Assembly: GCF_029688845.1 (NCBI RefSeq)
Contig: NZ_JARUKW010000003.1
Coordinates: forward strand, 1 to 64,000
Length of the DNA: 64,000 bases
DNA from: Natronococcus sp. A-GB1
GTDB lineage: Archaea > Halobacteriota > Halobacteria > Halobacteriales > Natrialbaceae
Direction: 5' to 3'
Positions 4,259 to 16,759 of the stretch are shown piece by piece; within the stretch, counting starts at the first letter, position 1, and the number at the start of each line of letters is the position of its first letter. A model generated the notes under the pieces. It ran no database searches, was not told the DNA's origin, and worked only from the letters and a program-made list of their open reading frames with translations. Position numbers and translations under genes: made by a program.

Positions 4259-6391
4259 ATGAACGAGGGCGCGTTTGTCTGTTCCTGCGCCGGAACCTGC
4301 GACATCGATCTCGAGGAGGCCAGAGAGGGGATCGAGGACGTCGAGGTCGCCGCGAGCTCGCAGCTGCTCTGCCAGGACAAGCTCGAGGCGTTCGAGCAGG
4401 TAATCGAGGAGTACGAACTCGACGAGATGATCGTCACCTGTCCCGAGGCCAAGGCCCAGGAGAAGATCGAGGCCGCGGCCGAGCGACAGGGGCTCCGGGC
4501 GGACGACATCGAGTTCGTCGACCAGCGGGAGGGGGCGGGGTGGGTCCACGACCGCGAGGCCGCGACCGCCAAGACCGCGCGGCTGGTCAACGCGGCGAAC
4601 GCGGGGCGCGAAACCGAGCGGCGCCCTCGATCGAGCATCCACCGGGCCGGCTACGACGTCGTCGTCGTCGGCGATCCGAACGCGGCCGCGGCGATCGCGG
4701 ACGCCGCGGACGTGACGCTGCTCGCGGACGGCGAGGAGCTGGCGACGGCCGACGCCGACCTCGAGAACGTCGACGTCGAGCGGGGTCGCGTCGTCGACGT
4801 CGACGGCAAGTACGGTGAGTTCGAGCTGACCGTCGAGGCGCTCGTCACCGACGACTGCGTCTCCTGTATGAAGTGCGTCCACGAGGGCCCCGACGGGATG
4901 GTCACCCGCTACCCGGTCGACATCCACCCCGAGGCCCCGGTCGGCGAGTGGGTGACGGTCTGCCCGACCGACGCCATCGAGATGGAGGGCGTCGAGCGGA
5001 CGATCGAATGCGATCAGGTGATCCACCCCGGCGGCGAGGGGCCGATCGGCGGCCAGCGCGGCTATCACACCAAGTTCGACCCGGCGACGGTCAACGAGGT
5101 CGAACGCCTGCTCGGCGGGTTCGAGGGGATCGACTTCCTCGACCTCGAGATGGAGGTCTGTGCCGCCGGCACGTCCGGCGAGATGGGCTGTAACGAGTGC
5201 GTCGAGGCCTGTCCCCACGACGCCGTCGAGCGGGCCGCGATCGACGAGGTCGAGTTTCACCTCGACAGCTGCCAGAACTGCGGCGCCTGTACCAGCGCCT
5301 GTCCGACCGGCGCGACCCGGCTCCAGGAGCCGAACAACGAGCGTCTCGCCCGCGAGGTCGAGGCGCTGCTGGCGCCGACGGGCGATGACGGCGGGTTCGT
5401 CAGCGGACTGCTCGGGGGCTCGAGCGCGAGCATCGAGACGCCGATGATCGCGTTCGTCTGTTCGGAGCACGCACAGAGCGCGCTCCGGGAGTACGGCCGC
5501 CTGGCGGCCGCGGGACGTGCCGACGTTGAGTACCCGCCGATCCTCCCGGTCTCGGTCAACTGCGCCGACACTGTCGGCGAGGCCCACGTCCTCCACGCGC
5601 TGGCGGCCGGCGCCGACGGCGTCGCGATCGTCGGCTGCGGCGGGAGCTGTCTCCACTCCGGCCCGGATCCGAAAGCCGAGCTCGTCGAGCGGGTCAACCG
5701 AGCGACAGCCGATCTGGGACTGGGCGAGCGAGTCTCCTTCTTCGCGCCCGATCCCGACGAGCCCGAGGCGTTCGTCGAGGAGGTATCCCAGTTTGCCGTC
5801 GCGGAGCTCGAAGCGTCGCCGATCCCCGCCGGCGAGCACGAGGCGGACGGCGGGATCGACGACCCCGAGCGGGAGAACCCGCCGTTCGACAGTCACGGCT
5901 GGACCCTCGAGAGCGTCCGCGCGATCCTCGAGCACGTCGAGCCCGAGCGGGAGGTGATCCGCGGGCTAAAGGACTTCGGGATCGTCGAGGTCGCGGAGGG
6001 CTGTACGCTGACGCCGACCTGTACGAGCTACTGTCCGACCGACGCGCTCCGGCGCACCGAGAACGGCCTCGACTTCAACCACGAGCGCTGTGTCAACTGC
6101 GGGCTCTGCGAGGAGGTCTGCGTCGAGAACGTCATGAACGTCGAGGACGGGCTCGACCTGTCGCTGCTGCCGGAGAACAAGCCGGAGGAGCCGGATCCCG
6201 CCTGGGAGCGGGTGTACGAGGGGTCGATGCTGTCGTGTGCCGGCTGCGGAAAGCAGTTCACGAGCGAGGCGACAGCCGACGCGATCGAGGACCGCATCGG
6301 TGACGTCGTCGCCGATCTCGCCCCCGAGTCCGAGGAGAGTATCTTCCAGTACTGTCCGGAGTGCCGAGCGCGGCTGCTTCACGATGTCTAA
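4259..6391 (+). CDS. HdrA/MvhD-like multi-cluster iron-sulfur protein
   Basis: A 710-residue cytoplasmic electron-transfer protein. The N-terminus (FVCSCAGTCDI, C8/C10/C14) resembles the start of heterodisulfide reductase HdrA. A Rossmann-like stretch at 131-157 reads VVVVGDPNAAAA, so the GxGxxG needed for FAD is missing. Cysteine clusters follow: C200-x2-C-x2-C with C235-P, C311-x2-C-x3-CP, C338-x2-C-x2-C-x3-CP, and near residues 580-625 CTSYCPTD with CVNCGLCEEVC. An MvhD-like domain at about 395-520 includes VCSEHAQSA and GCGGSCLHSG. The C-terminus has CAGCG and CPEC pairs. Next to formate dehydrogenase it may pass electrons between a cytoplasmic carrier and another partner. The FAD-less architecture is unusual. 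Confidence 0.82.
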   Translation: MNEGAFVCSCAGTCDIDLEEAREGIEDVEVAASSQLLCQDKLEAFEQVIEEYELDEMIVTCPEAKAQEKIEAAAERQGLRADDIEFVDQREGAGWVHDREAATAKTARLVNAANAGRETERRPRSSIHRAGYDVVVVGDPNAAAAIADAADVTLLADGEELATADADLENVDVERGRVVDVDGKYGEFELTVEALVTDDCVSCMKCVHEGPDGMVTRYPVDIHPEAPVGEWVTVCPTDAIEMEGVERTIECDQVIHPGGEGPIGGQRGYHTKFDPATVNEVERLLGGFEGIDFLDLEMEVCAAGTSGEMGCNECVEACPHDAVERAAIDEVEFHLDSCQNCGACTSACPTGATRLQEPNNERLAREVEALLAPTGDDGGFVSGLLGGSSASIETPMIAFVCSEHAQSALREYGRLAAAGRADVEYPPILPVSVNCADTVGEAHVLHALAAGADGVAIVGCGGSCLHSGPDPKAELVERVNRATADLGLGERVSFFAPDPDEPEAFVEEVSQFAVAELEASPIPAGEHEADGGIDDPERENPPFDSHGWTLESVRAILEHVEPEREVIRGLKDFGIVEVAEGCTLTPTCTSYCPTDALRRTENGLDFNHERCVNCGLCEEVCVENVMNVEDGLDLSLLPENKPEEPDPAWERVYEGSMLSCAGCGKQFTSEATADAIEDRIGDVVADLAPESEESIFQYCPECRARLLHDV

Positions 6392-6530: not shown

Positions 6531-7271
6531 CTACTCCGGATGTTCGATCGTCCAGTCGGCCTTCTCGGCGGCCGTCGCGAGCGGAACGAACTCCCAGCCG
6601 GCGTCGTCGGCGATCCACTCCTCGTCGCTGCAGCCGACGACGACGGTCCGATCGGCGTAGAACATCGAGTCGGGCGTGACGTCCGCGAGGCGCTCGGCCG
6701 GACCGGTCTCGGACCCGCCGAAGAAGTCGAGTTCGATCCGCTCGTCGCGCTGGAACTTCCGGATCGCCGGCGTCGACACCGTGCCGACGATCCCGATCCA
6801 GTCCGCCCACCCCCTGGCGTCGCCGACCACGAACTGTGGATCCTCGAGCCGGTTGATCGCCTGGTAAGTAAAGGCGAGGGTCATCTCGTCGGCCGTCGTC
6901 GCCTCGCCGTGATCGGTCGTTCGGGGCGTGGAGTCGGCCGACGTCGACTCGCCCGTTCCCGATTCGGCCTCCGACTCTGCGTCCGAGCTCCTGCCGGCGC
7001 CACCGCCACCGCGGTCCTCCGGAACGCCGACCGGTCCCTCCGTCGCTCCCGGCACCTGGGGAACGCGTCGGGACGGTTCGGCGTCGTTCCCGCTGTCGCT
7101 CTCGGAGTCGCCGTTGGCCGCCCCGTCGACGGGCGCGTTGCTCCGCACGGGATCCGATTCGTCTTCCGGATCGCCCTCGCCTCGCCAGAGCCAGTCGCCG
7201 TGGTTGGTGGTCTCGCCGTCCTCTTCATCCTCGCCGACGTCCATCTCGTCAAGGTCGATGCTGTCGGTCAT
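6531..7271 (-). CDS. Acidic protein of the formate dehydrogenase region
   Basis: A 246-residue protein from MTDSIDLDEMDV. Residues 1-120 are a low-complexity acidic stretch rich in D, E, S and G, likely disordered. The folded C-terminal half starts at TLAFTYQAINRLEDPQFVVGDARGW and ends DWTIEHPE. A longer upstream reading exists but is basic and unlike a halophilic protein, so ATG 7271 was chosen. Its start overlaps the stop of a 54-codon frame by 4 bp (ATGA), suggesting translational coupling. I cannot name a function. It sits between the HdrA/MvhD-like gene and the formate dehydrogenase operon, convergent with the former and divergent from the latter. Confidence 0.8.
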   Translation of the reverse strand: MTDSIDLDEMDVGEDEEDGETTNHGDWLWRGEGDPEDESDPVRSNAPVDGAANGDSESDSGNDAEPSRRVPQVPGATEGPVGVPEDRGGGGAGRSSDAESEAESGTGESTSADSTPRTTDHGEATTADEMTLAFTYQAINRLEDPQFVVGDARGWADWIGIVGTVSTPAIRKFQRDERIELDFFGGSETGPAERLADVTPDSMFYADRTVVVGCSDEEWIADDAGWEFVPLATAAEKADWTIEHPE

Positions 7272-7432
7272 CGGCGACGGACGACCTCCTCGAGCGGCCG
7301 GCAAACGGTCGAGCATCGGCGGCTGTGGCTGGCGAGTGCCGCCCTCGTTCCGGCGGCTGCTGACCGTTCCTCGGCGCAATCGTCCGTCCGGGTGCGGAAC
7401 GCCCGGTCGATCGGCAGTGTTGTCACGGCCAT
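7268..7432 (-). CDS. Possible 54-residue upstream ORF
   Basis: The frame starts at ATG 7432, about 25-30 bp after a TATA-like sequence (TTAATCCC on the minus strand, near 7455-7461), and its TGA overlaps the ATG of the following gene as ATGA. That layout is typical of a leaderless first gene coupled to a second. The product begins MAVTTLPIDRAFRTRTDD and is Arg-rich with three Cys, unlike most halophilic proteins, so it may be a short coupling frame rather than a functional protein. Confidence 0.35.
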   Translation of the reverse strand: MAVTTLPIDRAFRTRTDDCAEERSAAAGTRAALASHSRRCSTVCRPLEEVVRRR

Positions 7433-7781
7433 CGTCGGTAGTTCGCGGTGTGAAGGGATTAACTTTTGCGGGCTGCGTTCTCCCTGGGGGCGCGACGCAG
7501 CGAGCGTGGTGGACGAGCAGCAATGGTAAGAGCGAGGCTTCCGCTTACTCGGCAGATCGCTTCGTCTTCTAAGCACACGACGGAACGAGAAGCGGCGTCT
7601 GCCGCTCCGTTACGGTCGCCAGCGACGCGGAGAACTTCGCCACCCCAGCGTCCATCCTAATGTCGTACTACTGATTGATTATTAACTTATCATCCGACTT
7701 GTTGGGAGTTAGTCAGGAAGTAACCTATTTTAGTTACCAGTATCCCAAGGATTAATAACTCGGGACCACTTTCGCGTTTCT
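7433..7781. promoter_or_regulatory. Divergent intergenic region with formate dehydrogenase promoter
   Basis: This 349-bp gap has no convincing gene. Bases 7660-7760 are strikingly AT-rich. ATTAATAA at 7751-7758 lies 24-31 bp before the ATG at 7782 and is the likely TATA box of the formate dehydrogenase operon. Just upstream, 7720-7737 is an inverted repeat GTAAC-N8-GTTAC, placed where an archaeal regulator could help or block the basal factors. Confidence 0.55.
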
Positions 7782-10754
7782 ATGTCTCGGTCATCACTCG
7801 ACCTTGATCGTCGAGGGTTCCTGAAAGCCGGCGCCGGTGGAACTCTCGCAGCTGCGGTCGGGGGACGAACACTGCTTCAACAGCGCGCCGCCGCCGACGA
7901 GGACGACGTCGTCGATCCCGAAGCGGGGGACGAACTGGTAAAGACCGTCTGTACGCACTGTTCGGTCGGCTGCGGGATACAGATGTCCGTCGAAGAGGAC
8001 GCAGTCGTCGGCCAGGAAACCTGGGAGGACAGTCCGGTCAACCGTGGGGGACTCTGTTCGAAGGGAGCATCATTAACCCAGTCGGTCAACTCCGAACAGC
8101 GCCTGAAGAAGCCGTTGAAGCTCGAGGGCGGGGAGTGGACCCAGATGGAGTGGGACGAGATCCTCGAGGAGATCACGGGCCGACTCGACGACATCCGCGA
8201 GGAGACCGGTCCCCACTCGACGATGTGGGTGGGATCGGCTAAACACAGCAATGAGGCCGCCTACCTGATTCGGAAGCTGGCCGCGTTCTACGGAACGAAC
8301 AACATCGACCACCAGGCGCGGATCTGTCACTCGACGACCGTCGAGGGGATCGCGAACGTCTGGGGCGTCGGCGCCATGACGAACAACTCGAACGACATGC
8401 GCAACGTCGACGTCAACCTCATCATCGGGCACAACCCGATCGAGAGCCACCCCGTCGCCTGGCAGTACTTCCAGGAGGCCCAGGAGCGGGGCGGCAAACA
8501 CATCGTCGCCGAGCCACGGTACACCAAGACCGCGGCCGCGTCCGACGACTTCTACCAGTTCCGTTCGGGCACCGACGTCGCCTTTATTTACGGGCTGATC
8601 TACCACATCGTCGAGAACCTCGAGGCCCACGACGAGGAGTTCATCGAGAGCCGCGTGATGGTCGACACCTGGGAGGAGTTCCGCGACGACGTCCTCCCTG
8701 AGTACGACCTCGAGACCGTCGCCGACATCTGTGGCATCTCCGAGGAGGAGCTGATGGAGCTCGCCGAGGAGCTCGCCGATGCGGAGGTCAGCTGCGTCGA
8801 GTGGGCGATGGGCGGCACCCAGCACAACAACGCGACGGGGAACGTCCGGGCCTACGCGATGCTCAACCTGGCGCTTGGCCACGCCGCCCAGTCCGGCGGC
8901 GGCACCCCGATCTTCCGGGGCCACGACAACGTTCAGGGGGCGACCGACCTCGGCGTCGACTCGAGTACGCTGCCCGGCTACTACGGGCTCGACGAGGACG
9001 CCTGGGAACACTGGGCCAACGTCTGGACTCAGACTCAGAGCACCTCCGGGGAGGTCAGCTACGAGGATCTCCACGATCGGTTCCACGACACCGAGCTGAT
9101 GGAGAAAAACGGGTTTACCGTCGCCCGCTGGTACGAGGGCGTCCTCGACGACGAGTGGGAGATCTACCAGCCCGACCCGCTCCGGGCGGCGATCTTCTGG
9201 GGGCACGGGCTCGCCTCGCTCACCGAGTACAAGAAGGTCAAGCGGGCGGTCAACGAGCTCGACTTCATCGTCAACGTCGACGTCTTCCCGAACCAGGTCG
9301 CCGAGCTCGCCGAGGACGACACCGACGTCTACATGCTGCCGGTCTGTACGAACGTCGAGGAAGCCGGCAGCGTCACCAACACCGGCCGACAGGTCCAGTG
9401 GCGTTCGCAGGCGATCGAACCCCGCCACGACTCCCGAACGGACTGGGAGCTGATGTGTGACTTCGCCGAGCGACTCGGCTTCGGCGAGCACTTCGACTAC
9501 GACGAGGTCGAGGACGTCACCCGGGAGTGGAACCTCGGAACGCGCTCGGTCGGCTACGTCGGTCAGACACCGGAGCGGCTCAAGGCCCACCAGCAGAACT
9601 CCGGAGTGTTCAGCGCCGAGGACATCCAGGCCGAGGTCGACGAGGATCACGAGCTCCACGGGGAGTACTACGGGCTGCCGTGGCCGTGCTGGCACGAGGA
9701 CCACCCCGGAACGCCCATCCTCTACGACGCCTCGCTGCACCCCTCCGAGGGCGGGATGGACTTCCGGGCGAACTGGTGGGACGAGGACGATCCCGACGTC
9801 GACCCCGAGGATCAGCTCCGGGATCCGTACGAACCCGAGTGGTGGGACGGCGAGATCGAGGGCGTGCCCCAGTATCCGATGTTCTCGACGGTGCTGCCGG
9901 ACCCCGAGAACCCCGCTGCGGCGACGATCCCGATCGAGGGCGCGTTCGACGAGGACACCTCGGTCGCCGACGTCGCCCAGCAGCTCGACGACGAGGGGTA
10001 CGACGTCGACCTCGACATCTACGAGGAGTTCGACAACCCACAGCCCGACGCTCCGTGGGGCCGCGGTCGGGCCCGGATGAAGGCCTGGAACCTCACCGAC
10101 GAGATCCCGGTCCACCGCGAACCCGCGGTGACGCCCCGGCCCGACCTCGTCGAGGACTTCCCGTGTAACGAACGCGTCGAGGACCACTGGCGCGTCGAAC
10201 TCGACAACGCCGGCGTCCAGCAGGACAACATCGACGCCATCGACGAACTCGTCGAGGTCGGCGACGTCGACCCGCTGGTGCTCACCTCGGGTCGACAGGT
10301 CGAGCACAAGGGCGCGGGCGCGGTAACCCGCAGTACGAAAGGAACCGCCTCGCGGGCCCCGATGATGTATCTCGAGATCCATCCGGACGTCGCAGCCGAG
10401 ATCGACGTCGAGGAGGGCGACTGGATCGTCGTCACGACGCCACACGCCGAGATGCTCGTCCAGGCCAGGCCGACCGGACGGGTCGCATCCGACCACGCGT
10501 TTGCCCCCTATCACTGGAGCGGTATCCTCGAGGGCGAGCGAGTCATGGATAGCGTCCCCGACGGGATGGAGCCCCTGGTGATCGGCGAGTCGATCAACTG
10601 CGGCACGGCACCGGCCTACGACCGCGAGACCCAGATGCAAGAGACCAAGACGACGCTGTGTAACATCAGGGTCGCCGACGACGGCGAGATCCCCGAGCTG
10701 TCGGATCGACAGATCAGGTGGCAGGAACAGCGCATGGATCGGAACAAGCGATAG
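7782..10754 (+). CDS. Formate dehydrogenase catalytic subunit, Tat-exported
   Basis: A 990-residue molybdopterin oxidoreductase. A Tat signal (RRGFLK at 10-15, then an Ala/Gly-rich core) implies folded export with bound cofactor. The [4Fe-4S] ligands are C57, C60, C64 and C92. The active-site stretch ARICHSTTVEGIANVWG carries C182-H183, matching the selenocysteine-His pair of formate dehydrogenase N with Cys in place of Sec; this favours formate dehydrogenase over nitrate or DMSO reductases. The C-terminal dinucleotide-binding domain starts around residue 830. Acidic insertions between about 600 and 780 may be halophilic adaptations. It is the first gene of an operon with iron-sulfur and membrane subunits and a chaperone. 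Formate is the most likely substrate, but not proven. Confidence 0.88.
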   Translation: MSRSSLDLDRRGFLKAGAGGTLAAAVGGRTLLQQRAAADEDDVVDPEAGDELVKTVCTHCSVGCGIQMSVEEDAVVGQETWEDSPVNRGGLCSKGASLTQSVNSEQRLKKPLKLEGGEWTQMEWDEILEEITGRLDDIREETGPHSTMWVGSAKHSNEAAYLIRKLAAFYGTNNIDHQARICHSTTVEGIANVWGVGAMTNNSNDMRNVDVNLIIGHNPIESHPVAWQYFQEAQERGGKHIVAEPRYTKTAAASDDFYQFRSGTDVAFIYGLIYHIVENLEAHDEEFIESRVMVDTWEEFRDDVLPEYDLETVADICGISEEELMELAEELADAEVSCVEWAMGGTQHNNATGNVRAYAMLNLALGHAAQSGGGTPIFRGHDNVQGATDLGVDSSTLPGYYGLDEDAWEHWANVWTQTQSTSGEVSYEDLHDRFHDTELMEKNGFTVARWYEGVLDDEWEIYQPDPLRAAIFWGHGLASLTEYKKVKRAVNELDFIVNVDVFPNQVAELAEDDTDVYMLPVCTNVEEAGSVTNTGRQVQWRSQAIEPRHDSRTDWELMCDFAERLGFGEHFDYDEVEDVTREWNLGTRSVGYVGQTPERLKAHQQNSGVFSAEDIQAEVDEDHELHGEYYGLPWPCWHEDHPGTPILYDASLHPSEGGMDFRANWWDEDDPDVDPEDQLRDPYEPEWWDGEIEGVPQYPMFSTVLPDPENPAAATIPIEGAFDEDTSVADVAQQLDDEGYDVDLDIYEEFDNPQPDAPWGRGRARMKAWNLTDEIPVHREPAVTPRPDLVEDFPCNERVEDHWRVELDNAGVQQDNIDAIDELVEVGDVDPLVLTSGRQVEHKGAGAVTRSTKGTASRAPMMYLEIHPDVAAEIDVEEGDWIVVTTPHAEMLVQARPTGRVASDHAFAPYHWSGILEGERVMDSVPDGMEPLVIGESINCGTAPAYDRETQMQETKTTLCNIRVADDGEIPELSDRQIRWQEQRMDRNKR

Positions 10755-10764
10755 GTGAGATCAA

Positions 10765-11367
10765 ATGAGTACACAAGAATCTAACAGCGGACCGGCACGA
10801 GTCATCCCGAACTGGGAGTCATGTATCGACTGCGGGGCCTGCGAGGTCGCCTGTCAGCGGACCTGGGATCTCCCCCCGGAGAGCGACCGAATCCAGGTCG
10901 TCGCGCTCGGTCACGGGACCGAAGAGGAGGCGAACAAGCCGATGCAGTGTTACAACTGCGTCGAGGCACCCTGCGTCGAGGTCTGTCCGACCGACGCGTT
11001 GCGCATCCGGGACAGCGGCAGCGTCCGTGTCAAAGCCGACATGTGTATCGGCTGTCACTACTGCGGCGTCGGCTGCCCGTTCGGCGCACCGCAGTACCCG
11101 GACGCCGAGGTTCCCAATGCCGAGGAGGCCGAGCCGATGGGATCCCGAAGCGGCGGCCTGATGGACAAATGTACGACCTGCGAGCCGCGTCAGGAGGAGG
11201 GGCTCGAGCCCGCCTGCTCCTCGGAGTGTCCGACCGACGCCTTGCTGTTTGGCACGCCCGAGCAGCTCTCCGAGAAGCTCGACGAGGACGGCGTTTCGAC
11301 GCCGTTCAACGACGAGGCCGCCGAGATCGTCTTCGGCGAGGACGCGGACGAGATCATGGGGGACTAA
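10765..11367 (+). CDS. Formate dehydrogenase iron-sulfur subunit
   Basis: A 200-residue ferredoxin-like protein that should wire the catalytic subunit to the membrane subunit. Four Cys groups are visible: CIDCGACEVACQ, CYNCVEAPCVEVCP, CIGCHYCGVGCP and a last one formed by CTTC with CSSECP, enough for four cubane clusters as in FdnH/DmsB/NrfC. It has no signal peptide of its own, so it is probably carried out with the Tat-dependent catalytic subunit. It starts 10 bp after the catalytic gene's stop and is followed 6 bp later by the membrane subunit, which makes a tight operon. Confidence 0.9.
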   Translation: MSTQESNSGPARVIPNWESCIDCGACEVACQRTWDLPPESDRIQVVALGHGTEEEANKPMQCYNCVEAPCVEVCPTDALRIRDSGSVRVKADMCIGCHYCGVGCPFGAPQYPDAEVPNAEEAEPMGSRSGGLMDKCTTCEPRQEEGLEPACSSECPTDALLFGTPEQLSEKLDEDGVSTPFNDEAAEIVFGEDADEIMGD

Positions 11368-11373
11368 CCGCCG

Positions 11374-12480
11374 ATGGCAACCGAAGTCACGTTCGACCTG
11401 CCGTACTCCCAGTGGAATTGGCAGATCGGCGTCTACATCGCGATGATCGGGATCGCCAGCGGGGCGTACCTGATGGGGTACGTCGCCGACCTCCTGGCCT
11501 CGCGGCGAGATGCCCATGGGCACGGCCAGGTCGCGAAGTACGGCTACCTGGTCGGACTGCTCGGACTGGTGATCGGGCCGCCGATCCTGCTGTCACACCT
11601 CGCAACGCCGTTCCGGGCGATGCTCATCCCGCTGACGATGACGAACTTCGACTCGTGGATGACCATCGGTGCGTACCTGCTCGGCGGACTCGGGCTGGGT
11701 GCGTTCCTGATGTTCGTCTGGGTCGCGTTCGGACGGAACCGACCGCACGCACCCGAGCGAGCCGACTCCGGCGCCGTCGCCGCCGACGGCGGAACCGAGC
11801 GCGACGCCGCCAGGGCCGCGACCACCGACAGGACCGACGGACTGCGCGGCGTCGCCGACCGCGTCGGACTGCTCGATCTCGTCGACTCGCTCGCCGACAC
11901 GACCCGTCCCTCGGAGACGGTTCGGCTCGCGCTTGGCGGCGTGTTCTCGATCGCCGCGGCCGGCGTCCTGATCTACTCGGCGATGGCCTACGGCTCCGGA
12001 ATGACCGAGCGGGTCGCGCTGTGGGACAAGACGTTCCTGCTCCCGGTCCAGATCTTCAGCGGCCTCGGCGTGGGACTGGCGGGAGCGGTCGGGCTGGCGG
12101 CGGTGGCTGGCCGAAACCCCGGCCGTGCGGTTCGGCAGTACTCGCTCGTGATCGCCGGACTGCTAGCAGCGACGCTGGCGATGGTCGTCGCGACGATCGT
12201 CCTGTTGCCCGGGCAGAGCCCCGCAGCTGAGCCGGGGATCAACAACCTGCTCACCACCTACGCCGTTCCGTTCGTCGGTCTCGCCGTGATCGGCGGGCTG
12301 GTCGTCCCGATCCTGCTGTCGGTCGGCGCGGTCGTCGGCCAGCGACGCGACGCGCTCTCGCCGACGGCGGCGACGGCGACGTACGCTACCGTTGCGCTCC
12401 TCGCGGTCGTCGGCAAGATCTCGCTGGCGCTGAGCTACCTGCTCGCCGCCGAGTTCGAACCGCTCATCCTTCCGCTGTAG
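11374..12480 (+). CDS. NrfD/PsrC-type membrane anchor subunit
   Basis: A 368-residue integral membrane protein with about eight hydrophobic helices, the NrfD/PsrC pattern of quinone-interacting anchors without haem. The N-terminus (QWNWQIGVYIAMIGIASGAYLM-like helix, residues 14-35) and the PPILLSHLATPFRAML loop are family-like. A hydrophilic, acidic loop at about 125-185 separates two groups of helices and is longer than usual. It should take electrons from the iron-sulfur subunit to menaquinone at the outer face of the membrane. It is the third gene of the operon, and the TorD-like chaperone follows after 49 bp. Confidence 0.86.
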   Translation: MATEVTFDLPYSQWNWQIGVYIAMIGIASGAYLMGYVADLLASRRDAHGHGQVAKYGYLVGLLGLVIGPPILLSHLATPFRAMLIPLTMTNFDSWMTIGAYLLGGLGLGAFLMFVWVAFGRNRPHAPERADSGAVAADGGTERDAARAATTDRTDGLRGVADRVGLLDLVDSLADTTRPSETVRLALGGVFSIAAAGVLIYSAMAYGSGMTERVALWDKTFLLPVQIFSGLGVGLAGAVGLAAVAGRNPGRAVRQYSLVIAGLLAATLAMVVATIVLLPGQSPAAEPGINNLLTTYAVPFVGLAVIGGLVVPILLSVGAVVGQRRDALSPTAATATYATVALLAVVGKISLALSYLLAAEFEPLILPL

Positions 12481-12529: not shown

Positions 12530-13165
12530 ATGACACGGACCAGCGACCCCACGAACGAGCTCGCGGATCTATACGCGTTCCTCTCGGGCGTTCTCGCGGA
12601 TCCGCCCGACGAGACGGCCGTTGAACGGCTCAGCGCCGAACAGCTTCCGCGGCAGGCGTCGCCCCAGGCGCTCGACACCGGCTACCAGCTGCTCGACAAG
12701 TGGCGGGCCAGAGTCGACGATCCCGAGGCGGAGGCGGCCGAGCTGAATCGGGTCCACACCCGACTGTTCGTCGGACCGCGTCCGCGAATGCAGATCCACG
12801 AGTCCTGGTACGCCGACGACTACCTCGGCGAACCGCTCGCGGCCGTCAAGAGTTCCTACCGCGACCTCGGCATTCGGCCGTCGACGGAGCTCCGCGAGGA
12901 AGCCGACCACGCCGCCGTCGAACTCGCCGCCCTCGAGATCCTGGCCCGTGGAGGCAACGACGAGTACCGACGAGCCTTCCTGCAGGCCCACGGCTGGTGG
13001 CTGCGGGAGCTGGCCCGCGACATCCAGGAGATGACCGACAACCCCTTTTACGAGGGCGTCGGCTGGCTGCTCGAGGGGGTCTTCCAGGCCGACACCTACC
13101 TGCTCGGCCTCGACCCCGACGACCTCTCGCCGGGCTACGGACAGCTCTCCACGAACGGCGAGTAG
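12530..13165 (+). CDS. TorD/DmsD-family molybdoenzyme chaperone
   Basis: A 211-residue, mainly helical, acidic cytoplasmic protein. It matches the TorD/DmsD pattern in size and in the stretches LYAFLSGVLADPP, EYRRAFLQAHGWWLRELARDI and NPFYEGVGWLLEGVF. Such chaperones bind the Tat signal of a molybdoenzyme and hold it until the cofactor is inserted; the client here should be the catalytic subunit encoded upstream. It may be transcribed with the operon, or from a separate start, since a TTTTAACCC-like box lies near 12499. It is convergent with the AOR-like gene, with only 53 bp between the two stops. Confidence 0.85.
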   Translation: MTRTSDPTNELADLYAFLSGVLADPPDETAVERLSAEQLPRQASPQALDTGYQLLDKWRARVDDPEAEAAELNRVHTRLFVGPRPRMQIHESWYADDYLGEPLAAVKSSYRDLGIRPSTELREEADHAAVELAALEILARGGNDEYRRAFLQAHGWWLRELARDIQEMTDNPFYEGVGWLLEGVFQADTYLLGLDPDDLSPGYGQLSTNGE

Positions 13166-13218: not shown

Positions 13219-14958
13219 CTACAGCTCCTCGAGGTCGAGTCGCTCGAGGGTTCGGTCGGTCGGGATGCCGTCGTCCCACCCCCGGCGTTCGTAGTACCGC
13301 TCGAGGGTCTCCTCGAAGCTGGCCGCGTCGATCGCCACACCGTCGTTGGGGCCGCCCTCGAGCGGCTCCGTGAGCCGCTGGGGGAGCGTGTCGTCCTCCC
13401 GCGTAAAGCCCTCGCGACAGTTGAACAGTCGGATCAGCGTCCAGATGCGCTCGCCGACCCGACGCAGCTCCTCGGGCTCGTACTCGCGGTCGACGGCCGC
13501 GAGCCAGTCGGCACCCAGCGTCGCCGAGAGCGCCTCGCCGAAGAAGTCGTCGGCGATCAGGCTCCAGAGCACGGCGCGGCGGTCCTGCTCGGCGATCACC
13601 CTGTTCACGCGGTCGACGGCGTTCCAGTCGGTGCCGCCCAGCGCCTCGACCTCCACCGGTCGTGCGCGGCGGTGACAGGCCCCGCGATCGCTGGTCGCGT
13701 AGGCAAGCGCCATCGCGGACGCGCCGCGGGGGTCGTAGGCCGGTAGCGCCATCCCCTTCACCGAGGGGATCAGGTCGTCGCCGCCGTACTCGGCCGCGAC
13801 CGCGTCGACGCCGTCGGCCAGCGTCTCGCCCAGCGGGCTCGAGCGGTGGGTAATCTCCTCGATCAGCTCGCGGGCACCCTCCTCGTCGCCGAACTCGAGG
13901 TCGCGATCGATCAGCCCCTCCTGGCTCGCGCGGATCGCCCAGGCGACGGCGTTGCCCCCCGAGATGACGTCGAGCGCGAGCCGATCGCAGACCGAGCCGA
14001 GGGTGGCGACGGCGTCGAAGTCGTCGATCCCCAGGCCCGCGCCCAGCGAGATCGGGGTCGATCCTCGCGGAACGCTGTCGCCGTCGTCGCTCTCGACCTG
14101 GAACCCGCCCGGAACCGGCTCGTCGGATCGCTCGCGGTCGTGGGCGGCGTCGCGGACGGCCTCGATCCCGATCCCGTCGGCGCCGTCGAACCGGCCTTCC
14201 TGCCAGCCGCGGGTCGGCAGGACGCCGACCTCGTTCGCGAAGTCGAGCGTCTCGACGGTCTCGCTGGCGGCCTGCCAGCGGCCGGTGTCGTCGGTCGCGA
14301 ACGCCTCCTCGTACCGCCGGTGGAGCTCGCGGAGATCCGCGTCGAGTTCGGGCGGATCGCCGCGGGCGACCAGCGCCTTCAGCCGCTTTGCACCCATCAC
14401 CGCGCCCGCGCCGCCCCGGCCGGCGTGGTGGTCGCCGCCGTCGGAGGCGATCGTTGCGTAGGAGACGCCGTTCTCGCCCGCGGGGCCGATGCAGGCGACC
14501 GCGGCCTCGCCCGCTCGCTCGTCGGTCTCGCGGGCGTCGAGCCCCCACCAGTCCTCGGCCGGCTCGATGAAGACCTCGCCACCTTCGATCTCGAGTCTGA
14601 CGGGGCGGTCCGCCCGACCGGTGACGAGGATCCCGACGTGGTCGCCCAGCGAGCCCGCGAGCCGATCGGCCATCGAGCCGCCCGCGTAGGAGTCGAGAAA
14701 GGCTCCGGTCAGCGGCGATTTGGTGATGACGACGGAGCGTTGCTCGCCCGGCAGGAGACCGGTTAGTGGGCCGGTGAGAAACAACAGGACGTTGTCGTCG
14801 CCTAACGGATCCGTCCCTGGCTCGAGCTCCTCGTAGAGGTAGCGGGCGCCGAGTCCCTTCCCGCCGACGTACTTTCGGCGCCACGATTCGGGTACCGGTT
14901 CGGACGCGACGGACTCGGCCGCGAGATCGACGCGGACGAGAGTCTCCCCCGTTTCCAT
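13219..14958 (-). CDS. Aldehyde ferredoxin oxidoreductase family protein lacking Fe-S ligands
   Basis: A 579-residue AOR-family protein, near the usual length. The N-terminal pterin-binding domain is recognisable (YVGGKGLGARYLYEEL, GRGGAGAVMGAKRLKAL at 180-196), as are LPTRGWQEGRF, CDRLALDVISGGNAVAW, SDRGACHRRA and LFNCREGFTREDDTLP. The C-x2-C-x3-C expected between residues 271 and 310 is absent, as is the fourth ligand in the DxxGLC motif, here LWSLIA at 465-470. The protein has only four Cys, none in those places. Start ATG 14958 was chosen because a TATA-like TTTAACTA lies about 30 bp upstream. Oxidation of aldehydes by a tungstopterin is known for the family; activity here is doubtful. 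Confidence 0.85.
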   Translation of the reverse strand: METGETLVRVDLAAESVASEPVPESWRRKYVGGKGLGARYLYEELEPGTDPLGDDNVLLFLTGPLTGLLPGEQRSVVITKSPLTGAFLDSYAGGSMADRLAGSLGDHVGILVTGRADRPVRLEIEGGEVFIEPAEDWWGLDARETDERAGEAAVACIGPAGENGVSYATIASDGGDHHAGRGGAGAVMGAKRLKALVARGDPPELDADLRELHRRYEEAFATDDTGRWQAASETVETLDFANEVGVLPTRGWQEGRFDGADGIGIEAVRDAAHDRERSDEPVPGGFQVESDDGDSVPRGSTPISLGAGLGIDDFDAVATLGSVCDRLALDVISGGNAVAWAIRASQEGLIDRDLEFGDEEGARELIEEITHRSSPLGETLADGVDAVAAEYGGDDLIPSVKGMALPAYDPRGASAMALAYATSDRGACHRRARPVEVEALGGTDWNAVDRVNRVIAEQDRRAVLWSLIADDFFGEALSATLGADWLAAVDREYEPEELRRVGERIWTLIRLFNCREGFTREDDTLPQRLTEPLEGGPNDGVAIDAASFEETLERYYERRGWDDGIPTDRTLERLDLEEL

Positions 14959-15027: not shown

Positions 15028-15112
15028 ATACTGTCTGCTGTAAGTCATTTCCGGTGGGACCGCAGGACGGATCGCGGTCCCACCGGTAAATCGTTACAGC
15101 AAACCGTATCAG
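15028..15112. repeat. Palindromic repeat, copy 1 (at yqeC stop)
   Basis: The core is a perfect 13-bp inverted repeat, CCGGTGGGACCGC (15051-15063) and GCGGTCCCACCGG (15074-15086), around a 10-nt loop. Outer arms 15029-15044 and 15092-15107 also pair with few mismatches (TGCTGTAA with TTACAGCA). The yqeC stop codon (15109-15111) lies in its right end. Related copies are at 37129-37213 and 57903-57990. No T-run follows on the transcribed strand, so a simple terminator is unlikely. Confidence 0.75.
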
Positions 15113-15834
15113 ACGACGTCGACGACCCGATCCTCGAGCAACTGCGCGAGAACGACCCGGGGCACGTCCCGTCGCTCGCGGATCTCGTCGGCGATCTCGC
15201 GGGCCGTCTCCTCGAGTTCGGGTGTGTCGACCATGTTCACGAGCGGGATCACTGTGGCGCCGTCGGGCACGTCCTTGCAGCCGCCTCGGTCGCTCGTCAC
15301 CACGGTCGCGACGTCGCTCGCCGAGATCCGATCGCCGGGCTCGAGGTCGGTGAGCGCCGCGACCCGCTCGGGGCGGTGGACGTGCTCCTCGACGAGTCGC
15401 TCGCCGACGATCTTCGCGCTCGCGATGGGGACGACGACGTCGGTCGCGGTCGGCAGCTGCGGCTCGTCGTCGTTCGGCGCCTTGAACCAGCGGGTGCGGG
15501 CGCCGTCGGCCTTGACCACCACCGAGGTCTCCGGCCCGAGGTCGGCCACGAAGTCGTCGACCGTTTCGGGATCGTAGCCGAGGTAGCGGTCCGATCCCTC
15601 GCGGCCGGCGACGAGACCGATCGGCCACGACTCTGCCGAGTCGATCGCCTCGAGCGGACGATCCGTGACGATCACGTCCTCGACCTGTTCCTCGAACGGC
15701 GGGATGCGAACGGTGGCGGTGACGACCGCACGCTCGAGTCGGTCCGCGAGCGCGTACAGTGTCGACTTCTTGCCGCCCGCGCCGACGACGCAGGTGACGT
15801 TGCCGCGAGCGGTCAGCGCCTCGGGAAGATCCAT
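15109..15834 (-). CDS. yqeC: YqeC-like selenium-dependent hydroxylase accessory protein
   Basis: A 241-residue protein with a P-loop-like N-terminus (VVGAGGKKSTLYALADRL), VVVKADGARTRWFKAP in the middle and IASAKIVGERLVEEHVHRPE after it, the features of the YqeC family. In bacteria yqeC is linked to maturation of selenium-dependent molybdenum hydroxylases, but the biochemical step is not settled. No xanthine-dehydrogenase-like hydroxylase or selenium gene is in this window. Its neighbours are the AOR-like protein (same strand, 150 bp downstream) and the formate dehydrogenase operon, so it may serve molybdenum or tungsten cofactor handling here. A palindromic repeat overlaps its stop. Confidence 0.75.
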   Translation of the reverse strand: MDLPEALTARGNVTCVVGAGGKKSTLYALADRLERAVVTATVRIPPFEEQVEDVIVTDRPLEAIDSAESWPIGLVAGREGSDRYLGYDPETVDDFVADLGPETSVVVKADGARTRWFKAPNDDEPQLPTATDVVVPIASAKIVGERLVEEHVHRPERVAALTDLEPGDRISASDVATVVTSDRGGCKDVPDGATVIPLVNMVDTPELEETAREIADEIRERRDVPRVVLAQLLEDRVVDVV

Positions 15835-15971: not shown

Positions 15972-16190
15972 TCAGTCGTCGTCATCGTCGTCGTCGTCGT
16001 CCTCATCATCATCGTCGTCGTCATCGTCATCGTCCCCATCGTCATCGTCGTCATCGTCATCGTCCTCATCGTCGTCGTCCGCTTCGTCCTCTTCGTCTTC
16101 CTCATCGTCACCATCATCATCTGCCTCGTCGTCGTCTTCGTCGTCATCCGCTTCATCGTCATCGTCGTCGTCAGTCGCCGATTCGTTCCC
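15972..16190. repeat. Asp-codon trinucleotide tract
   Basis: Runs of GTC and ATC triplets on the plus strand (GAC/GAT codons on the minus strand) fill this stretch with few interruptions. It encodes the Asp-rich tail and is a candidate for replication slippage in whole triplets, which would change tail length without breaking the frame. Confidence 0.75.
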
Positions 16191-16577
16191 GTCGGTTTCG
16201 TTGTCGGCCGTCTCGTTGCCGTCGGTCCCGTCGTCGGTTTCGTTCCCGTCGTCCTCGAGCTCGTCCCAGTCGATCTCTTCCGTCTCGTTGTCGTCGTCAT
16301 CGCCTCCCTCGTCCTCGGGGTCTTCGTCTTCGTCATCCTCGGCCTCGTCGTCCGAATCGGTGGCGTCGATCATCTCGGCGGGATCGTCCTCGAGTCCCGG
16401 CAGGTCCTCGGTCTCCGCGTCCGTCTCGGCGCTCGAGGTGTCGCCGCTGACCCCGAGCCCGAGGGTAACGCCGGCGATCGTCATCCCGAAGACGACGAGG
16501 ACGGCGACCGTCGTGACGAGCAGCGCGCCGACGGATCCCCCGTCCGGCTCCCGGTCGTACCCGCGCGTTCCCGACAT
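15972..16577 (-). CDS. Membrane-anchored protein with poly-aspartate tail
   Basis: A 201-residue protein from MSGTRGYDREPDGG. One hydrophobic helix (about residues 17-41, LLVTTVAVLVVFGMTIAG) is followed by a very acidic region: Asp/Glu-rich to residue 95, D/N/E/T-rich to 140 (several Asn-Glu-Thr units that could be N-glycosylated), and then almost pure Asp to the end. Start 16577 was chosen because CTTAACAATA on the minus strand lies about 31 bp upstream. I know no function; a surface-exposed polyanion that binds cations or carries glycans is a guess. The coding strand of the tail is a GAC/GAT trinucleotide tract prone to length change. Confidence 0.75.
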   Translation of the reverse strand: MSGTRGYDREPDGGSVGALLVTTVAVLVVFGMTIAGVTLGLGVSGDTSSAETDAETEDLPGLEDDPAEMIDATDSDDEAEDDEDEDPEDEGGDDDDNETEEIDWDELEDDGNETDDGTDGNETADNETDGNESATDDDDDDEADDDEDDDEADDDGDDEEDEEDEADDDDEDDDDDDDDDGDDDDDDDDDDEDDDDDDDDD

Positions 16578-16759
16578 CGTACTCGACGTACGCACCCTGA
16601 TCGGTATTGTTAAGCACCGCAAACCTTCGCTCGTCTGAGACGTGACGACAGCGTCGACGGGTCGGCTCCGCGTCGTCGGGCGTAGGCGGCGACTACCCGG
16701 GGCGGTCGCCGGGTTCCGGGACCGAAACGACTACCGGGTCGCGTTCGTACCACCGTCCC

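Follow-up and report, generated by a model that had tools for sequence, protein, structure and literature searches.

A formate dehydrogenase-linked clade of haloarchaeal aldehyde oxidoreductase homologues without the iron-sulfur ligand cysteines

The locus

The window analysed here, a 64,000-nucleotide stretch of Natronococcus sp. A-GB1 DNA, carries a formate dehydrogenase (FDH) cluster and, beside it, a gene for a 579-residue protein of the aldehyde:ferredoxin oxidoreductase (AOR) family in which the cysteine ligands of the [4Fe-4S] cluster are missing (Cys-less AOR). The genes concerned are the following.

4259-6391, plus strand: multi-4Fe-4S protein of HdrA/FlpD type within the FDH cluster (Pfam FlpD/Fer4 on an orthologue)
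6531-7523, minus strand: DUF7124 protein, a conserved companion whose true start is probably internal
7782-10754, plus strand: FDH catalytic subunit with an ARICH active-site motif, Cys182-His183 (profile matches, motif)
10765-11367, plus strand: 4Fe-4S electron-transfer FDH subunit (FDH3_beta is the top NCBIfam match, below cut-off)
11374-12480, plus strand: NrfD-like FDH membrane subunit (assigned from its position and a weak TIGR03148 match)
12530-13165, plus strand: TorD-like FDH chaperone (PF02613, weak TorD match; conserved neighbour)
13219-14958, minus strand: Cys-less AOR-family protein, 579 aa (open reading frame, Pfam AFOR_N and AFOR_C, AF2, Foldseek)
15109-15834, minus strand: yqeC (TIGR03172, above cut-off)

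The Cys-less aor reading frame runs on the minus strand from an ATG at 14958 to a stop codon at 13219-13221; an in-frame ATG further upstream, at 15048, was judged not to be the start. Pfam AFOR_N (1.8e-63) and AFOR_C (1.8e-97) cover the protein essentially end to end, and its best PDB sequence match is 9mqx_D (7e-89), with 1aor at 2e-76. The AOR fold is retained in the predicted structure: the AF2 model (pLDDT 82.6, pTM 0.89) superposes over its whole chain on 9MQX, 9G7J, 1B25 and 1AOR (Foldseek TM 0.84-0.90), and its confidence drops below 50 at residues 234-248 and 271-297, the site of the former cluster loop. The active-site Cys and His of the neighbouring FDH are invariant in our FDH alignment (A1). 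Two acidic proteins are also encoded nearby: the DUF7124 protein has an acidic low-complexity N-terminus and a conserved C-terminal domain, and a 216-aa open reading frame (15972-16622, minus strand), upstream of yqeC and on the same strand, ends in a very long, low-complexity Asp/Glu-rich tail with runs of D.

An AOR pocket without its cluster

The residues discussed below lie in five short segments of the gene.

14101-14136, minus strand: residues 275-286 (RERSDEPVPGGF), the site of AOR C288-x2-C291-x3-C295, without Cys (alignments)
14056-14073, minus strand: residues 296-301, VPRGST, a clade signature in place of GPEYES/T, with Glu313 lost (alignment)
13969-13986, minus strand: residues 325-330, DRLALD, the first pterin motif (DxxGLD, G to A; alignment)
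13672-13674, minus strand: His429, equivalent to AOR His448, kept (115/115)
13549-13566, minus strand: residues 465-470, WSLIAD, the second pterin and fourth-ligand motif, with Asp470 at the place of Cys494 (Asp in 115/115)

Residue counts refer to 115 distinct haloarchaeal orthologues, numbered as in 1AOR; carriers total 213 genomes. The first-pass annotation had described an AOR homologue without Fe-S ligand cysteines, a description borne out for the full-length protein and for its relatives: CxxCxxxC is absent from all 115 orthologues, the block 265-318, which in AOR holds three cluster cysteines, contains zero Cys in 114 of them, and position 295, the third cluster Cys of AOR, is Gly in 113. 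It had expected the first motif at about 271-310, in agreement with the alignment of 1AOR C288, C291 and C295 to about 275-286, and had found the first pterin motif preserved, as indeed it is in DRLALD. Its reading of DxxGLC as LWSLIA at 465-470 was off by one; the motif aligns with WSLIAD, and the counterpart of the fourth ligand, Cys494, is thereby Asp470 and not Ala. Ligands at shifted positions, the outcome that could have overturned the claim, are ruled out by where the cysteines lie. The whole protein has four (156, 324, 428 and 514), none in a CxxCxxxC; the three that are near-invariant in the clade (156, 324, 428) are not spaced as such a site, and 324 and 428 are also present in most Cys-bearing AORs.

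The loss extends to a catalytic residue. E311 has become Arg and Y312 Gly in 115/115 orthologues, the AOR Glu313 position is occupied by Ala, Gly or Ser in all of them, and of the Glu313-His448 pair of catalytic AOR and WOR enzymes only the His is kept (115/115), so that the protein departs from those enzymes in this respect as well as in its Fe-S ligands. Because the Fe-S site and the Glu313 position are both gone, ordinary aldehyde:ferredoxin oxidoreduction is unlikely. Much of the cofactor pocket is nevertheless conserved: R186, D343, R444 and H448 never vary, 107 orthologues have Arg at R76, the D338 equivalent is Asp in 107 and Asn in the other 8, and G187/188 and G95/96 of the AOR cofactor region are strictly conserved. 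(The roles in AOR of R76, Glu313, His448 and the pterin motifs are those established for the 1AOR and FOR structures.) The first pterin motif is kept across the orthologues as DxxAL/GLD. In the second, D489 is replaced by Trp in 115/115; a Cys-bearing sister clade already has Tyr or Phe at this position, and most bacterial relatives have Phe. New invariants of the Cys-less clade near the active site are R298, G299, R430 and D470.

Distribution, selection and origin

A search for related loci returned 11 haloarchaeal orthologues (63-98% identity), none of which has the cysteines; the bacterial/Kazan relatives that it also returned (33-39% identity) keep both CxxCxxxC and the fourth Cys. Matches at E<=1e-110 occur in 219 of 391 haloarchaeal genomes, and no listed match is interrupted by a stop codon; so wide a spread rules out an oddity specific to the window or the genus. 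Setting aside six genomes that have only the Cys-bearing sister clade (two of them, G263 and G339, assigned to it by E-value and genus) leaves 213 carriers, roughly half of the 391. In one locus (L192, G354:C15), from a genome that is 87% complete, the Cys-less AOR appears in several tblastn pieces, through either a broken copy or an assembly error.

In a tree from which the cluster and fourth-ligand columns had been left out, the Cys-less proteins form a single clade (SH-aLRT 100), its sister is the Cys-bearing haloarchaeal clade (99 for the pair) and the bacterial relatives are next out. Since the Cys-less proteins form one clade, ligand loss looks, from these sequences, like one event in an ancestor within the haloarchaea; independent losses find no support in a tree with one origin. 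The earlier view of a preserved paralogue, not simple decay, stands up well. The check proposed for it, an alignment of the haloarchaeal AORs together with dN/dS, yields a clade lacking the ligand cysteines with dN/dS (NG86) of 0.07-0.37 between the window gene and eight relatives, and in most pairs the constraint on region 255-320 is no weaker than elsewhere in the gene; 99 columns are invariant across 68 Cys-less sequences. These values, along with the stop-free listed matches, rule out a decaying pseudogene.

Linkage to formate dehydrogenase

The adjacency to formate dehydrogenase and yqeC, remarked on from the start, holds and turned out to be the main clue. Of 55 Cys-less aor loci, 29 have an FDH catalytic gene within ~9 kb, and YqeC is near in 27, DUF7124 in 25, MobA in 18 and any member of the set in 43; TorD is frequent in the FDH-linked loci, and MobA often accompanies YqeC. 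None of the set is near the gene in 12 of the 55, nor is any of it nearby in the Cys-bearing sister clade (0/5 loci). Nearly all linked FDHs long enough to read have the Cys-His motif, and two pass the TIGR01591 cut-off. They fall into four architectures: an NrfD type, a cytochrome b561 or HdrA-FlpD type, a ~710-aa cytoplasmic type and a NuoF/NAD-linked type. Haladaptatus salinisoli has two Cys-less AOR copies on two plasmids (unnamed2 and unnamed6), each near a different type of FDH; at the unnamed2 locus a molybdopterin oxidoreductase with a NuoF-like partner is accompanied by YqeC and MobA. Such variety of architecture, together with the H. salinisoli pair, is easier to reconcile with a general FDH factor than with a single electron-transfer partner.

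Annotated formate dehydrogenases lie near the gene on plasmids of Haloterrigena turkmenica, Halobellus limi, Halomicrococcus gelatinilyticus and Natrinema sp., and likewise in the plasmid records of Haloterrigena salifodinae, Halorientalis marina and H. salinisoli (unnamed6); the stretch around the gene contains none in the records of Halostagnicola larsenii and Halorussus vallis plasmids. At four plasmid loci (L209, L214, L215, L216) the Cys-less aor gene sits in clusters with a BCCT transporter, and a Rieske-type oxygenase or an SRPBCC protein; the clusters also encode FDH, a large FAD-dependent oxidoreductase, and serine hydroxymethyltransferase or formate-THF ligase. These four look like pathways that demethylate betaine/dimethylglycine and end with the oxidation of formate, and some plasmid loci, more broadly, look like clusters for betaine, dimethylglycine or formamide catabolism.

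The association extends to whole genomes. FDH was scored at E=0, a practical cut-off, with a mixed profile of 10 haloarchaeal FDH sequences, because a search with close FdhA relatives, which found 29 genomes only, was by itself too narrow. By this measure 239 of the 391 haloarchaeal genomes have FDH, 213 have the Cys-less AOR and 199 have both, FDH being present in 199/213 carriers versus 40/178 non-carriers (Fisher p = 4e-51, uncorrected for shared ancestry). Any strong MopB match is found in 212/213 carriers, and YqeC also in 212/213 (p = 3e-51, uncorrected for shared ancestry). When the FDH threshold is relaxed to 1e-140, a single Cys-less AOR genome has no match (G316, 89% complete), and its weaker match is without the motif. 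YqeC follows FDH more closely still, occurring in 238/239 genomes with clear FDH versus 37/152 without (p = 1e-64, uncorrected for shared ancestry). In spot checks, weaker FDH-profile matches in four YqeC-positive genomes carried the FDH motif, and the best matches in six YqeC-negative genomes with strong MopB hits were without it; none of the strong-MopB genomes lacking YqeC carries the Cys-less AOR. Adjacent pairs of MopB genes occur in four YqeC-negative genomes (G031:C11, G149:C11, G121:C24, G361:C3), and in three of these pairs one member has an ARLCH-type motif and its partner does not.

The 40 FDH genomes without the Cys-less AOR, all with YqeC, rule out that the protein is a universal requirement of FDH. 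In the four that we inspected, a short cytoplasmic FDH adjoins MobA and YqeC.

Absence of FdhD and the place of YqeC

In E. coli, FDHs need FdhD, which binds bis-MGD and supplies the sulfido ligand (PMC6239281, PMC10609526), and some haloarchaea oxidise or grow with formate (PMC5437934). The FdhD profile PF02634 found no match in any of the 391 haloarchaeal genomes, nor did a second profile, TIGR00129, in the six haloarchaeal genomes checked with it. Positive controls were matched in E. coli, M. jannaschii, other bacteria, methanogens and Sulfolobus; in the six genomes searched with both profiles, this speaks against a weak profile as the reason. The window protein is itself no FdhD: it belongs to the AFOR family.

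YqeC has been tied, with SelD, to selenium-dependent molybdenum hydroxylases (PMC2276186), and its role in C. difficile is uncertain (PMC11448449). SelD scored below cut-off in five of six haloarchaeal genomes checked and above it in one. One genome (G016) has two YqeC copies, the first (C5:384406-385044) beside selD (C5:385474-386400) and the second (C27:246569-247180) ~1 kb from the Cys-less AOR, as if selenium and FDH roles were held there by separate paralogues. Haloarchaeal YqeC may serve FDH maturation in general and not selenium metabolism and, as the more universal companion of FDH, may be the actual substitute for FdhD.

Proposed role of the Cys-less AOR

Because the cluster and a catalytic residue have been lost and the gene travels with FDH, the Cys-less AOR is probably an FDH helper rather than an aldehyde oxidase. 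The first-pass annotation had suggested changed chemistry, which accords with the loss of the Fe-S site and of the Glu313 position; the genomic evidence points at least equally to a non-catalytic, FDH-linked role. We regard it as an even call that the protein is a non-catalytic bis-pterin scaffold in an FdhD-independent route of FDH maturation, a reading that we prefer because the pocket is largely conserved while the cluster and Glu313 are not. As expected of an FDH maturation factor, the protein goes with FDH irrespective of FDH type and of the apparent source of formate at its loci (respiration, betaine demethylation, formamide); it is not found wherever FDH occurs, being absent from 40/239 genomes.

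We posit that an AOR-fold protein which lost its [4Fe-4S] cluster once, in a haloarchaeal ancestor, was recruited as an FDH accessory factor. It would still bind a Mo/W bis-pterin in the AOR pocket, would perform no redox turnover, and would keep the cofactor in place or in shape during nucleotide addition by MobA; YqeC would add or exchange the terminal chalcogen ligand, and TorD would keep FdhA open for loading. Contacts with FdhA, YqeC and MobA are presumed in this scheme, as is the order of the steps. AOR binds two pterins without GMP and the FDH cofactor carries GMP, so that a carrier role needs either hand-over before MobA acts or an enlarged pocket. The broader proposal, that haloarchaea mature FDH without FdhD through YqeC and MobA, joined in most species by a cluster-less AOR acting as bis-pterin scaffold, is advanced tentatively.

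The main rival is a Mo/W bis-pterin enzyme with changed, probably non-redox chemistry, a hydratase-, lyase- or isomerase-like one-carbon step feeding formate to FDH, in which the Fe-S cluster would be dispensable because there are no electrons to export. Retention of most pocket residues and of His448, the new invariants, and several plasmid loci that combine a BCCT transporter, a large FAD-dependent oxidoreductase, serine hydroxymethyltransferase, formate-THF ligase or formamidase with FDH all fit this idea, which we nonetheless consider unlikely: the window cluster and many others look like simple FDH clusters that contain no further one-carbon enzyme, the link to YqeC and MobA is left unexplained, and the AOR Glu313 position is lost. 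Still less probable is a pseudoenzyme that binds neither pterin nor metal and supports FDH structurally or through regulation. The missing Fe-S site, Glu313 and D489 would agree with it, as would the low confidence of the model where the cluster loop used to be (234-248 and 271-297), but strict conservation of R186, G187/188, G95/96, D343, R444 and H448 is unexpected for an empty pocket, and the FDHs that the protein goes with differ widely in their subunits. The AOR fold and possibly formaldehyde-generating neighbours in some loci would speak for an ordinary aldehyde (formaldehyde) oxidoreductase whose electrons go straight to another carrier, as in DMSO reductases without Fe-S; with Glu313 replaced by Ala, Gly or Ser in 115/115 and no single candidate electron acceptor conserved beside the gene across loci, such an enzyme is very improbable. 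A decaying paralogue or an annotation or sequence artefact, which the four missing ligands, the missing catalytic residue and the broken-looking copy in the incomplete genome G354 might have suggested, is refuted by the number of distinct Cys-less copies (115) and the signs of constraint already given.

Comparison with known systems

To our knowledge, the [4Fe-4S] cluster has so far been treated as defining AOR and WOR enzymes. A key-term search of the 2026 AOR/WOR family classification brought up no cluster-less clade, and neither cluster-less AORs nor the maturation of FDH in haloarchaea turned up in the literature that we searched. If the scaffold reading is true, this would be the first AOR-family protein, as far as we know, turned from an enzyme into a cofactor-maturation factor.

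The AOR/WorL family (Pfu AOR 1AOR, Pfu FOR 1B25, 9MQX and Hfx. volcanii WOR83 9Q1T) has AFOR_N and AFOR_C in common with the Cys-less clade and matches it with up to 300 bits; its enzymes have the [4Fe-4S] ligands, Glu313 and GPEYE, whereas the Cys-less clade has none of these and instead has VPRG and a context of FDH, YqeC and MobA. The Cys-bearing sister clade (e.g., Natrialba magadii NMAG_RS18645), at 45-47% identity, has H182, Y93 and the loss of D489 in common with the Cys-less proteins but, unlike them, keeps CxxCPVAC and Cys494 and lies near FDH or YqeC in 0/5 loci; four genomes with the sister clade have neither FDH (E=0) nor YqeC. FdhD/NarQ, an FDH-dedicated bis-pterin-binding protein, is our proposed functional analogue; the two are unrelated in sequence, and the role would transfer by analogy. 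In the YqeC/YgfJ set (TIGR03172/TIGR03310), too, YqeC and an NTP transferase of MobA/MocA type are encoded beside a Mo enzyme (PMC2276186). That set serves selenium-dependent hydroxylases; haloarchaeal YqeC tracks FDH instead. The comparison raises the questions of how FDH obtains its sulfurated bis-pterin cofactor where no FdhD is found and whether YqeC contributes, and the conservation of a cluster-less clade in about half of the sampled haloarchaea indicates that the AOR fold can be kept for another purpose.
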